NCBI RefSeq assembly: GCF_964204645.1
Contig: NC_134027.1
Location: 24,540,485-24,604,484, forward strand
Source: Tubulanus polymorphus
Lineage: Eukaryota; Nemertea; Palaeonemertea; Tubulaniformes; Tubulanidae
Reading direction: 5' to 3'
DNA: 64,000 nt
In this document: positions 7,713-26,663 of the stretch, piece after piece
Layout of the letters: each line of letters begins with the position of its first letter
How positions within the stretch are numbered: the first letter of the stretch is position 1
Notes under the pieces: model-generated
What the model saw: the letters and a program-made list of their open reading frames with translations, nothing else
What the model was told of the DNA's origin: nothing
Database searches by the model: none
Program-made: the position numbers and the translations under genes

Positions 7713-8789
7713 ATGCTCTATGAAAACGTTACAAGTGCAAGTTCTGCATTGACTACTGTTCATCTAAACTATTCATCATGTCAGATGATTAAAACGCTTC
7801 CTGTTAAATGGATCAACAAATTGTTTGCTTTAACGTATATAGCTTGGTTTCTACCGGCGTCAGTATTGGGTTTGATATTCAACGCATTCACGTTGTTAGT
7901 TCTGAAACGATTTGAATCTGATAATTATTTTCTCATCAAAATTCTCGCTTTAAACGATCTTTTGTTTATGATCGCTACGTTCATTCTTTATCCACTGAGA
8001 ACTGCGTACGTTTACGGCGTTTTGGGGGATATTGTATTTCGCATAAGTGACTGGAATTTCGGTTGGATTTTCATCTCAGTCGCCTTGCCGTTTTTCTACA
8101 TGTTTCAGATGACACGTAACTGGTGCACTGTACTGCTCAGTCTAGAGCGGTTAATCGTCGTATTGTTTCCGATCAAATCTCGTAATTTTCCTAAAAAGTC
8201 ACTATCAACGTGCGCGATGACATTTATTTCACTGTTAAGTTTTTGTGGTCATTTCGCTCAAGCAATACCAAAATATAATCTTGTGTTTTTGGGATGTCCC
8301 GCCCACTGGCCGTATATCATAACCCTGGGTAAGCAATCTGAATATTGGAACAATCATCTAGACTTCTGGCGCTCACGAATTTCTCAGAGATATATATTCA
8401 TATGTCTTACTGCCATGATCCCAATTTGCTTGTTAGTTGTAATTAATGTGATTCTTATTTCTGTGATATTTTACCGTCGGGTTACTCGACGTTCAGAGCT
8501 CGGTATAACTGATGAATCGTCTAAAAAAGAAATGAGGGTTTTAAGGATGGTTTTATCTGTAGTTTTGTTGTTTATCATTTGCGAAATGTTTGGTTTTATT
8601 TTCCGATTTAGTCGTATGGAATACATACCTTATATACCAAGTCTAAGCCTTGTAGCGTTGGGATTTTCGATCATCGATTCGTCAGTAAACTTTATCGTGT
8701 ATTGCGCGACAAACGAAAAATTCAGAAAAATCGCTATCGAAATTTTAATAAACCTTTGCTCAGAAAAAAAGTCACCATTTCAATCATGA
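7713..8789 (+). CDS. Class A 7TM receptor, peptide-receptor type (array gene 1)
   Basis: A 358-residue G protein-coupled receptor encoded in one exon. I start at the ATG giving MLYENVTSASS because it aligns with MFDNNITSTS of the other copies; the longer ORF has only a TTG start. Seven hydrophobic segments are visible. TM1 ends in LGLIFNAFTLLVLKRF, TM2 has ALND (Asp 2.50), and TM3 ends LLSLERL in place of DRY. TM7 has DSSVNFIVYC in place of NPxxY, followed by KFRKIA (helix 8). The N-terminus carries glycosylation sites (NVT, NYS). The TM3-top cysteine is replaced by Ile after W-N-F-G. This ERL/NFxxY pattern recalls FMRFamide-receptor-like or GPR139-like peptide receptors, but the ligand is unknown. 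It is the most diverged of the five plus-strand copies. Confidence 0.88.
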   Translation: MLYENVTSASSALTTVHLNYSSCQMIKTLPVKWINKLFALTYIAWFLPASVLGLIFNAFTLLVLKRFESDNYFLIKILALNDLLFMIATFILYPLRTAYVYGVLGDIVFRISDWNFGWIFISVALPFFYMFQMTRNWCTVLLSLERLIVVLFPIKSRNFPKKSLSTCAMTFISLLSFCGHFAQAIPKYNLVFLGCPAHWPYIITLGKQSEYWNNHLDFWRSRISQRYIFICLTAMIPICLLVVINVILISVIFYRRVTRRSELGITDESSKKEMRVLRMVLSVVLLFIICEMFGFIFRFSRMEYIPYIPSLSLVALGFSIIDSSVNFIVYCATNEKFRKIAIEILINLCSEKKSPFQS

Positions 8790-9472
8790 AAAAGCAACAA
8801 AAAACGTGTTTCCTTTTGCAAACTTTAAACACAATTTGAACATTTCAGATTTCATTTTAATATTCTTTTTATGAAGTGGTATACCGTCAACAACCAAAAA
8901 ACGAACTTAACCCAAAATCAGCTCGTGAAAGGAAAATACTCAGAAGAGAACTGTGTTTGAATATAAAACATGAGAAAAAAGTTTAATTTATTCTAATGTT
9001 GGCCTCGATGATTCTCCGAAGATTGCACGATGATTTTCTGCGAACACGCCGGAAAGCGATTACTCGCGCGTTATTTTTACAAGCTACGTCTGTTGTTCTC
9101 AGGGCGAGTTTGTGTCCATTCCATCATCAAGCAATGCTCGTTACGACACTCCGGCCAGCAGAAATAGGCTCTACAATTAAACTAACTACTACATTCCGAA
9201 AAGACAATGTAATATGAAAATACACTATTTTTAAAACAATTCGGCAGTTTTGTCTTTTTTAGCTTCTAAACGCGGCTTCGCGCGAATATAGAATTCGATC
9301 GGGAATTTCTTTTGTAACAGCGATGGTGCAATTCAATATATTGGTTTCAGTTTCTTGGGGGAATCGGATATTTTGTAATCGGTTTCTTTGTGACACCTTT
9401 CATCGCTTTGACTGTTTATAATCTTGCGAGACAATCAGTACTGATACAGAAGATGGAACTAATTAATTATTT

Positions 9473-9604
9473 CTCTCTCTCTCTCTCTCTCTCTCTCTCT
9501 CTCTCTCTCTCTCTCTCTCTCTCTCTCCCTCCCTCCCTCCCTCCCTCCCTCCCTCCCTCCCTCCCTCCCTCCCTCCCTCCCTCCCTCCCTCCCTCCCTCT
9601 CTCT
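9473..9604 (+). repeat. Compound microsatellite (CT)n(CCCT)n, unit A
   Basis: About 27 CT units (9473-9526) run directly into about 18 CCCT units. The Ser-Leu and Pro-Pro-Ser-Leu reading frames across it are artefacts: no ATG opens them, and array length differs between copies. Confidence 0.95.
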
Positions 9605-24336: not shown

Positions 24337-24915
24337 ATGGAAAATACCAATCACGATATAGTATCATCTCATATCATACGTAACAAATTATCTTTTTATT
24401 ATACGATTAAACAGTCCTACCAACTAGAAAACTACTTATTGGTTGTAAAGAATTTTAATATTAGGAGTGCAATTGCCAAACTACGTAGCTCATCCCATCG
24501 ACTGATGATAGAAAAAGGCAGACACCTGGGATTGAGTAGAGAAAACAGACTTTGTGATATATGTAACTGTGTGGAAGACGAGCAGCACTTCGTCTTATCG
24601 TGTAGCAAATTCGACAGGACTCAGGACGAAATTTGATTTGGAAATTGGATATGCAAATGATATAAATAGAATTTTTAATGATATAGGTAGTCAATCAGAA
24701 TTGGTAAATTGGGGGAAGTATATCCAATCGGGATTTGAATATTATATTTAATTTTAGGCTTGACTTATATTGTACAGTACGCTATGTCCTATGCACTCTT
24801 TCTTGTAAATATTTTTGTAATCCTAGTATTGTATATATGTATTATATTGTTTTCTTCTAATCCGCTGTTCATTGACGATCATGTCATGTGATTATAATGA
24901 ATAAACAAACTTGAA
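24337..24915 (+). pseudogene. 5'-truncated, frameshifted non-LTR retrotransposon 3' end
   Basis: One frame (24337-24636) encodes RSAIAKLRSSSHRLMIEKGR then LSRENRLCDICNCVEDEQHF and VLSC. This is the C-terminal Cys-Cys-His-Cys segment typical of LINE reverse transcriptase ORFs. The reading then shifts frame to FDLEIGYANDINRIF...FEYYI with a stop at about 24751. The 3' UTR ends in aataaacaaacttgaaacttgaaact, a short repeated tail. The fragment is inactive. It is a CR1/L2- or jockey-like relative by the look of this motif; the exact clade is not determined. Confidence 0.85.
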
Positions 24916-25538
24916 ACTTGAAACTACGTTACATCTAATGTTACATTATCATAATCTCAAATCTATGTTACATCATACGTTACATATGTTCTATCTAAAT
25001 TAAACGTTTAACGATTCTGGATTTATTTGCCACGTGGATTTCAATTGCACCCGTTCATTGAATTCATCGAACAGCTCTAATTTTCATGTTAGAATATAAT
25101 TGTATTTTGGTCAAATTCTTTTGATTTTTTGATTTTACGACCCGTCAAATGCGCAAAAATATCATTGACTGACCCAAATAAATTATGTTCTTTTTTGAAT
25201 GGAACATTCATTTTTGCCAGTCTTTGGGCTGCGGCTTTTGAAAATAACGGTATTGCTCTTAACACTGATAGCGTTCTACTTTTTCTTTTTTGAGTTAAAT
25301 TGAGTTGAGTTGAGTTGACCGATTTTGTGTCATTAATTTCAAACAGGATTTTTGCAATGAAAGGTCTAAGAAATTATCACAATTTATTCATACTACGTCG
25401 ATGAAATCAGAGAACTGCTTTTTGTGGAATTGGGTAAAAGTTCGGAAAATAACGCGTTTGTTTAGGGAAAATATGCATTGAAAGAATTGGGGAAAATGTT
25501 TGAATAGAGTTAAGAAAATATAGGAAATTGAACGGGTC
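24916..25538. other. Non-coding spacer before the minus-strand receptor
   Basis: No gene seen. It contains a short ttgag-type pentamer run (gagttaaattgagttgagttgagttgacc) near 25290. Since it lies 3' of the receptor on minus, it should include its 3' UTR. Confidence 0.4.
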
Positions 25539-26663
25539 TTAACATTTCAGACGAATCAAAGATTTGACGACAATTTGTTTAGCGGCGAGTCTGAATTTAT
25601 TATTAGTAAAACAATAAACTACGAAGTTTAAACACGAATCGACGACCGTCAAAGCAATGGCTATTTTTCGGTATGCCTGTGATGATTCGGTCTTACTCAA
25701 ACCCGGAATAGGAAGCAGGATGGATCCAAACCTGAGGTGAAGTTGTTCCATTGTAATTAAAGATTCGCAAATAATGTAAATAGCGATTACAGCAAACGTC
25801 ATTCGTAAAACTCTCATTTCTACATTTCTACTGCTGGTGGCGGTGGCGGCGCTCTTATTCAATTCCTTACCGCGCAGTAGTTTAGTGATTATTAAACTGA
25901 CAATCAAAATGAGATTTATAAACACCAGTGAACATATGGGCACAACTACTCTGGATATTGTACCTTGCCAACCAGTCGAATAATAATCCCACCTATTCAT
26001 TAGCCCTCTTACGGTTTGTATGGAGTAGCGATAGGACAAGCGTGGACCCCGCACTAGTGTCACTCCTGGATCCCCATCAATGCAAGCGATTGATCGAAGC
26101 TCACGTTTGGGTAAAAACAACGGGAAAAAGCAAAGAAAACCGTAGATTGTGATGAAAAAAATGAGAACATTCACCACTTTTCGAGTCCAGAACATTCGTG
26201 ATTTTAACGGGAAAAGTGTAATGACTAGTCTTTCTAAACCAATAAGAATAACGCACCAGTTTCGAATTTGCTGAAACATGTAATATGGTCCTATAATCAC
26301 TTGTATAAATCCCCAACCGTAATTCCAGTCATCCGCATAAAATAGAACTTTACCTAAATGTATATAGAGGTGAATAGCTCGTAGAGGGTACATGATGAAT
26401 ACACTTGTACAGTAAGATACGTCAAAGATAGCTAAAACCTTTATCAAATAATAAACTTCATTTTTCATCCTCTTCAATACGATAATTGTGAAAACGTTTA
26501 AAGCGATGCCGAGTATCGTGACGGGTCCATAACAGAAAATATACATGTAAACGCTAAATTTAAGTTCCCAGCGATATGGTCTAGTATTCACTAGTCGTTC
26601 ACACCATCCAGACCAGGTTTTTACTGTCGGTTTTAAAGTCGTCGAAATATTGTTTGCATCCAT
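25539..26663 (-). CDS. Class A 7TM receptor, diverged inverted paralogue (array gene 6)
   Basis: 374 residues starting at a true ATG (MDANNISTTL), which parallels MFDNNITSTS and supports the start chosen for the other genes. The layout is colinear: TM1 LGIALNVFTIIVLKRM, TM2 with Asp81, W-N-Y-G at 113-116 with Ile120 in place of Cys 3.25, GLERLVITLFP after TM3, Cys21 in the N-terminus, Cys194 in ECL2, and VDSCLNFVVYC in TM7. It differs in a longer ECL2 (VTLVRGPRLSYRYSIQTVRG), an Ala/Thr/Ser-rich third intracellular loop (NKSAATATSSRN) and an extended TM6-TM7 loop. It is a peptide-type receptor with unknown ligand, and an older duplicate transcribed towards the array. Confidence 0.9.
   Translation of the reverse strand: MDANNISTTLKPTVKTWSGWCERLVNTRPYRWELKFSVYMYIFCYGPVTILGIALNVFTIIVLKRMKNEVYYLIKVLAIFDVSYCTSVFIMYPLRAIHLYIHLGKVLFYADDWNYGWGFIQVIIGPYYMFQQIRNWCVILIGLERLVITLFPLKSRMFWTRKVVNVLIFFITIYGFLCFFPLFLPKRELRSIACIDGDPGVTLVRGPRLSYRYSIQTVRGLMNRWDYYSTGWQGTISRVVVPICSLVFINLILIVSLIITKLLRGKELNKSAATATSSRNVEMRVLRMTFAVIAIYIICESLITMEQLHLRFGSILLPIPGLSKTESSQAYRKIAIALTVVDSCLNFVVYCFTNNKFRLAAKQIVVKSLIRLKC

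Follow-up and report, generated by a model that had tools for sequence, protein, structure and literature searches.

Known receptors with and without the TM3–ECL2 disulfide

In class A receptors the second extracellular loop (ECL2) is normally anchored at the upper end of the third transmembrane helix (TM3). The disulfide between Cys3.25 and ECL2 is often regarded as essential to class A folding, and Cys3.25 is conserved in about 88% of the class, though the parts of PMC7460885 drawn on here list S1P1R, GPR82, GPR139, GPR142, GPR146 and the melanocortin receptors as lacking this bond. A second list, from part of PMC8779880, gives S1P1, S1P3, LPA1, CB1 and CB2 as being without it. According to the sections of PMC10241960 that we use, LPA1 has a disulfide between its N-terminal tail (N-tail) and ECL2 and no TM3–ECL2 bond, and a passage of PMC6321247 describes its N-terminal cap as bonded to ECL2. 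The same sections of PMC10241960 report an N-tail–ECL2 bond in GPR84 (C11–C166), whose alanine mutants without the bond are not activated; its authors knew of LPA1 as the only other lipid receptor with such a bond, which in both receptors helps shut the pocket from outside. Here we describe a receptor family of the nemertean Tubulanus polymorphus, six members of which lie in a stretch of 64,000 nucleotides (hereafter the window, meaning the whole stretch analysed; contig NC_134027.1, positions 24,540,485 to 24,604,484, forward strand). We suggest, with a probability of roughly 0.85, that in this family the canonical extracellular disulfide has exchanged one of its partners, so that a cysteine of the N-tail (at about position 1.15) would bond the ECL2 cysteine while Cys3.25 was replaced. 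A first-pass annotation had proposed such a rewired disulfide from the six window genes, and the proposal is supported: all 108 full-length paralogs that we compared keep both cysteines, none has Cys3.25, and the arrangement in the sister clade is the standard one.

The cysteine pattern in the six window receptors

All six receptor open reading frames (ORFs) in the window are single-exon genes encoding proteins with seven transmembrane helices (7TM):

7713..8789, plus strand: receptor gene 1, 358 aa, intronless 7TM; Cys23, Ile121 (3.25), Cys195
10719..11792, plus strand: receptor gene 2, 357 aa, intronless 7TM; Cys21, Ile120, Cys194
14783..15856, plus strand: receptor gene 3, 357 aa, intronless 7TM; Cys21, Ile120, Cys194
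18859..19938, plus strand: receptor gene 4, 359 aa, intronless 7TM; Cys21, Ile120, Cys194
22433..23515, plus strand: receptor gene 5, 360 aa, intronless 7TM; Cys21, Ile120, Cys194
25539..26663, minus strand: receptor gene 6, 374 aa, intronless 7TM; Cys21, Ile120, Cys194

The claim that isoleucine stands in place of cysteine at 3.25 in all six proteins was borne out. In the five plus-strand genes the residue 25 positions before R3.50 (Arg145 in genes 2–5, Arg146 in gene 1) is Ile120, or Ile121 in gene 1, and the isoleucine of gene 6 shares the same alignment column (W-N-Y-G-W-G-F-I). When a profile of the six proteins was aligned with somatostatin receptor 2 and compared by eye, this isoleucine fell on Cys3.25 of that receptor and the ECL2 cysteine on its ECL2 cysteine. 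Each protein has, as had also been claimed, one N-tail cysteine (Cys21; Cys23 in gene 1) and one ECL2 cysteine (Cys194; Cys195 in gene 1), 6/6 in both cases. The six proteins have no further cysteine in the N-tail or in any of the three extracellular loops (limits in gene 3 residue numbers: N-tail up to 36, ECL1 99–119, ECL2 186–228, ECL3 297–312). The N-tail cysteine had been placed "just before TM1"; its position in the tail holds, but the wording was loose, since the residue lies 34–35 positions before N1.50, which we take to be some 15 residues ahead of the TM1 helix. The surroundings of the ECL2 cysteine in gene 4 are unlike those in genes 2, 3 and 5, with the cysteine itself retained.

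The first-pass annotation had also leaned on the pattern being present in all six genes. It is, but their independence was overstated, since genes 2–5 are recent copies with 83–94% mutual protein identity; gene 1 is 63–65% identical to these four, and gene 6, which belongs to a second large subfamily, shares 34–38% identity with the rest. Taken by itself, gene 6 would have its single cysteine in register by chance with a probability of about 3% in the N-tail and 2% in ECL2. With about three independent lineages and these chances of 2–3%, the window alone is suggestive only. Because the six genes amount to about three independent samples, paralogs elsewhere in the same genome were therefore tested.

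Conservation of the two cysteines across the family

Both cysteines are universal in the final alignment of 108 distinct full-length proteins, 6 from the window and 102 from elsewhere in this one genome: the N-tail cysteine is present in 108/108, as is the ECL2 cysteine, in a single column. Residue 3.25 is isoleucine in 103 members, threonine in two, and alanine, phenylalanine and valine in one each; it is cysteine in none. Neither ECL1 nor ECL3 contains a cysteine in any of the 108, and 106 members have precisely two extracellular cysteines, the exceptions being L097, with a second cysteine in a longer N-tail, and L113, with a second one in ECL2. The spacing from R3.50 to the ECL2 cysteine is 49 residues in 105 members and 50 in three, and that from the N-tail cysteine to N1.50 is 34–36 in 107 and 41 in one. 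Five cysteine columns within the transmembrane helices, common to most members, are retained in 94, 68, 65, 98 and 101 of the 108.

We mapped changes onto a tree of 95 members built from transmembrane and adjoining columns, without the columns of the N-tail and ECL2. The median number of changes per site was 25 in the N-tail, 30 in ECL2 and 32.5 in ECL3, and neither cysteine was ever lost; the lone change in the N-tail cysteine column is an alignment shift, and the presence of a cysteine in the tail changed 0 times among the 95. Ten further rows left out of the alignment, checked by eye, agree: the N-tail cysteine is present in 4/4 where the region is present, and the ECL2 cysteine in 9/9. The observation of the cysteine pattern is thus confirmed; the 108-member test settles the matter and rules out a chance origin. 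The refuting case named in the first-pass annotation, homologues that readily drop one cysteine but retain the other, did not occur, there being 0 losses of either in the 108 paralogs. A bond between the N-tail and ECL3, the layout of chemokine receptors, was considered and ruled out by the absence of an ECL3 cysteine (0/108).

The sample came from a search of the whole assembly (267.8 Mb in 77 contigs). With gene 3 as query there were at least 114 matches (114 scored of 1493 candidates), and with gene 6 at least 111 (110 scored of 1454 candidates), about 59 of the latter at places absent from the gene 3 list. Hand comparison of the two match lists gives a family of at least about 174 distinct places, most of them, as listed, a single open frame and many lying outside the window on its own contig. 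We analysed 102 of the 114 gene 3 places (30 + 72) and 13 of the roughly 59 new gene 6 places, chosen mainly for divergence. The 102 loci yielded 105 ORFs with 12 partial or odd rows, of which L034 and L094 were restored with long tails and ten (broken, truncated or second-piece copies) were excluded; two identical copies were treated as one (93 to 92), and five loci repeating window genes were counted once. Pairwise identity among the 108 has a median of 59% and a minimum of 27%, and clustering gives 66 groups at an identity threshold of 80% and 31 groups at 70%.

Sister clade and history of the proposed swap

Ten receptors outside the family, hand-picked from 150 places in the same genome, served as controls; two of them were chosen for their nearness to family members. 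Cys3.25 is present in nine of the ten, L108 having serine; spacing to R3.50 gives cysteine in seven and the serine of L108, and the calls for L104 and L110 come from alignments. In trees of both 95 and 108 members, rooted on L105, the sister of the family consists of four of these controls (L103, L109, L110 and L111), with support of 1.0 at the joining node. Cys3.25 and the ECL2 cysteine occur in every one of the four, and three (L103, L109, L110) lack an N-tail cysteine; L111 has two cysteines before TM1, both ahead of the first methionine. The TM7 of this sister clade carries the N-F motif of the family. The simplest history, judged from these sequences, would be a single swap on the family stem in which Cys3.25 was lost, the N-tail cysteine gained and the ECL2 cysteine kept.

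Weighing the proposed disulfide against its alternatives

What leads us to infer a pairing of the N-tail with ECL2, within one chain, is that the cysteines are even in number, that they are conserved together without exception, that no third cysteine offers itself as a partner, and that other receptors provide precedents. Several points weigh against it. Strict conservation of two cysteines is no proof of their mutual pairing, the 108 members are all drawn from a single genome, and the sole structure model, made from an alignment of the six window proteins, was unusable and discarded (predicted local distance difference test 43.7, predicted template modelling score 0.42). The hand-picking of the ten controls counts here too, and these controls do not all behave simply: L108 is likewise without Cys3.25, and L105 and L107 show glycine and glutamine in the aligned 3.25 column, though we counted both as having Cys3.25 because the spacing to R3.50 gives cysteine, a one-place alignment shift. 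Six of the ten (L104, L105, L107, L108, L111 and L112) have a cysteine in the stretch aligned before TM1, for which start codons were not set, so an N-tail cysteine alone is nothing special. Finally, support for monophyly of the family is 0.88 with 95 members and 0.47 with 108.

Strict conservation of both cysteines would fit equally well if they formed bonds between chains, giving covalent dimers. We consider this very unlikely, and the least probable of the alternatives, because the loss of Cys3.25, gain of one cysteine and retention of the ECL2 cysteine is most simply a swap of partners, and because the N-tail–ECL2 bonds of LPA1 and GPR84 lie within one chain (PMC10241960 in the part used here, together with known structures). 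Alternatively, each cysteine could be kept for a separate reason in a family without any extracellular disulfide. Receptors do manage without the TM3–ECL2 bond, as the list in PMC7460885 given above indicates, and the GPR139 chain, with aspartate at 3.25, has no ECL2 cysteine at all. The complete absence of loss of either cysteine in 108 members, amid fast-changing regions, is instead the pattern of a bonded pair, and makes this explanation very unlikely.

A different objection concerns the history and would place the loss of Cys3.25 before the family, inherited from a GPR139-like ancestor and no part of a swap. Human GPR139 lacks Cys3.25 and has a cysteine just before TM1, and N-F replaces N-P in TM7 of both GPR139 and the family. 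However, the nearest relatives found in the same genome, which also have N-F, carry both Cys3.25 and the ECL2 cysteine in 4/4 and no N-tail cysteine in 3/4. GPR139, for its part, lacks an ECL2 cysteine and does not branch as the family's sister in a tree that includes one GPR139-like sequence. Such an inheritance is therefore unlikely, and we favor a partner swap on the family stem.

If the N-tail–ECL2 disulfide forms, isoleucine at 3.25 of TM3 would leave ECL2 pinned to the N-tail rather than to the top of TM3. As in LPA1, the N-tail and ECL2 may then be joined into a single covalently closed lid that spans TM1 and the pocket, with the bond working as in LPA1 and GPR84 by tying the two segments together over the ligand pocket. 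The surface of this putative lid would vary widely among paralogs around a constant staple, and the family may have a sensory role. A broader scenario has, in our judgement, about an even chance of being right: a near-universal disulfide was rewired once on the family stem, the family then radiated to well over 100 mostly intronless genes in which a variable lid of N-tail stapled to ECL2 leaves ECL2 unattached to TM3, and an LPA1-like design was reached independently in a sensory or peptide-sensing repertoire. With more than 100 paralogs that lack Cys3.25 and keep the ECL2 half, and the standard form in a sister clade of the same genome, the family offers a natural series in which to ask how a disulfide partner can be exchanged while the fold is preserved. 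It also lets one ask whether tying ECL2 to the N-tail and not to TM3 alters gating and ligand access.

Tandem array and neighboring features of the window

By their sequence, genes 2–5 are a recent tandem array. Self-BLAST of the window resolved three head-to-tail units of about 4.05 kb, 94% identical, with one of genes 2–4 in each:

8954-12997, plus strand: first unit of about 4.05 kb
13004-17079, plus strand: second unit
17086-21143, plus strand: third unit

Gene 5 sits in DNA with a match of about 90% to this unit, and the DNA matches between gene 1 and the others are at 75–78%. Outside the six genes, tblastn found only weak matches to further receptor copies in the window (E 0.74 and above). 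Each unit also contains a long CT-rich repeat of four bases (9473-9603, 13514-13686 and 17600-17744).

ECL2 has the highest amino-acid-changing rate among the regions compared, both within genes 2–5 and between gene 1 and genes 2–5. In TM1 of genes 2–5 the proportion of nonsynonymous differences (pN, 0.127) exceeds that of synonymous differences (pS, 0.070), with a slight pN excess in ECL1 and the third intracellular loop as well; positive selection or gene conversion may be the cause. In all four genes the frame stays open for 80–86 codons upstream of the ATG (e.g. 10479-10718), which may reflect chance preserved by recent duplication or an N-terminal extension. Two features elsewhere in the window are a short open frame on the plus strand (24331-24636) with a C-x2-C-x-C...H...C pattern and no Pfam match, which we take to recall the tail of a non-LTR reverse transcriptase, and a long GGAGAG array of 48.5 copies (62926-63216).

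Class assignment

We take the family to be a lineage-specific set of intronless, rhodopsin-like receptors. All six window proteins match Pfam 7tm_1 (E 2.7e-7 to 1.5e-5), though the curated cut-off of 30.5 bits is exceeded by gene 1 alone, with 30.8 bits, and the remaining five score 25 to 29.5. N1.50, D2.50 and R3.50 are each present in 95/95 members. W6.48 and N-P-x-x-Y in TM7 are usual, not universal, in class A; here 6.48 is glutamate in 94/95 members and 7.50 is phenylalanine in 92/95. The class A hallmark of Cys3.25 bonded to ECL2 is missing as well (Cys3.25 in 0/108), and the LPA1-like combination of an N-tail cysteine, an ECL2 cysteine and no Cys3.25 is found in 108/108.

Genes 1, 3, 4 and 5 exceed the curated cut-off of Pfam 7TM_GPCR_Srv (PF10323; 22.4 to 26.3 against 21 bits), with a better E-value than for 7tm_1 in genes 3 and 5, and genes 2 and 6 are not listed for Srv. 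We did not accept membership in the nematode Srv chemoreceptors, the scores being weak and near the cut-off; the match is probably a weak general 7TM likeness. NCBIfam gave no match. A profile search of the PDB ranked somatostatin and opioid receptors highest; the best 60 of 108 matches include an S1P3 entry close to their end and do not include LPA1. Searches for relatives found none in collections of genome contigs and viral contigs and, for gene 2, none in phages. The family is large, its genes lack introns and its extracellular regions vary, features that suggest a repertoire for sensory or peptide reception.

Comparison with known systems

In size, intronless genes and tandem growth the family resembles two described invertebrate repertoires, a likeness only. 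Flatworm PROF1, compared by description, is likewise a big lineage-specific, intronless rhodopsin-like set, often with N-F in TM7, but its published TM3 and TM6 motifs are unlike those of the family (PMC3261222, in part); the words "cysteine" and "disulfide" are absent from the main text of that paper. The candidate chemoreceptors AcCRa-c of Aplysia, also compared by description, are rhodopsin-like with variable N-termini and include a subfamily of 38 intronless genes, but the conserved cysteines described in the part of PMC2700072 that we use run from C88 on, with none in the N-tail. Among the titles and abstract openings listed in searches of the open-licence literature we found no invertebrate family with the same swap, which is weak evidence of absence.

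Among receptors lacking the standard bond, GPR139 shares with the family the N-F motif of TM7 and the absence of Cys3.25, and differs in having no ECL2 cysteine, in carrying tryptophan at 6.48 where the family has glutamate (94/95), and in its position outside the sister clade in the tree. GPR142 is similar in being without the TM3–ECL2 bond, as listed in PMC7460885. Protostome receptors for FMRFamide (type 1), MIP, proctolin and RGWamide adjoin GPR139/142 according to part of PMC8557429; our tree represents this FMRFamide-type-1/GPR139-like group by GPR139 only.

The closest parallels to the proposed bond are GPR84 and LPA1. GPR84 has an N-tail–ECL2 bond and, unlike the family, retains the canonical Cys3.25–ECL2 bond too. 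LPA1 has the same N-tail–ECL2 layout without a TM3–ECL2 bond that is predicted for the family, but it is a receptor for lipids, its N-terminus forms a helical cap and its ECL2 has three cysteines, against one in 107/108 members here. By hand count, the N-tail cysteine precedes N1.50 by 43 residues in LPA1 and by 27 in GPR84, against the 34–36 of nearly all family members (107/108). The layout was thus already known from LPA1; what appears to be new, in the literature searched, is that a large receptor family of an animal employs it throughout. Where LPA1 gives a single human example, the present family allows the swap to be located on a tree and examined across many naturally occurring variants.

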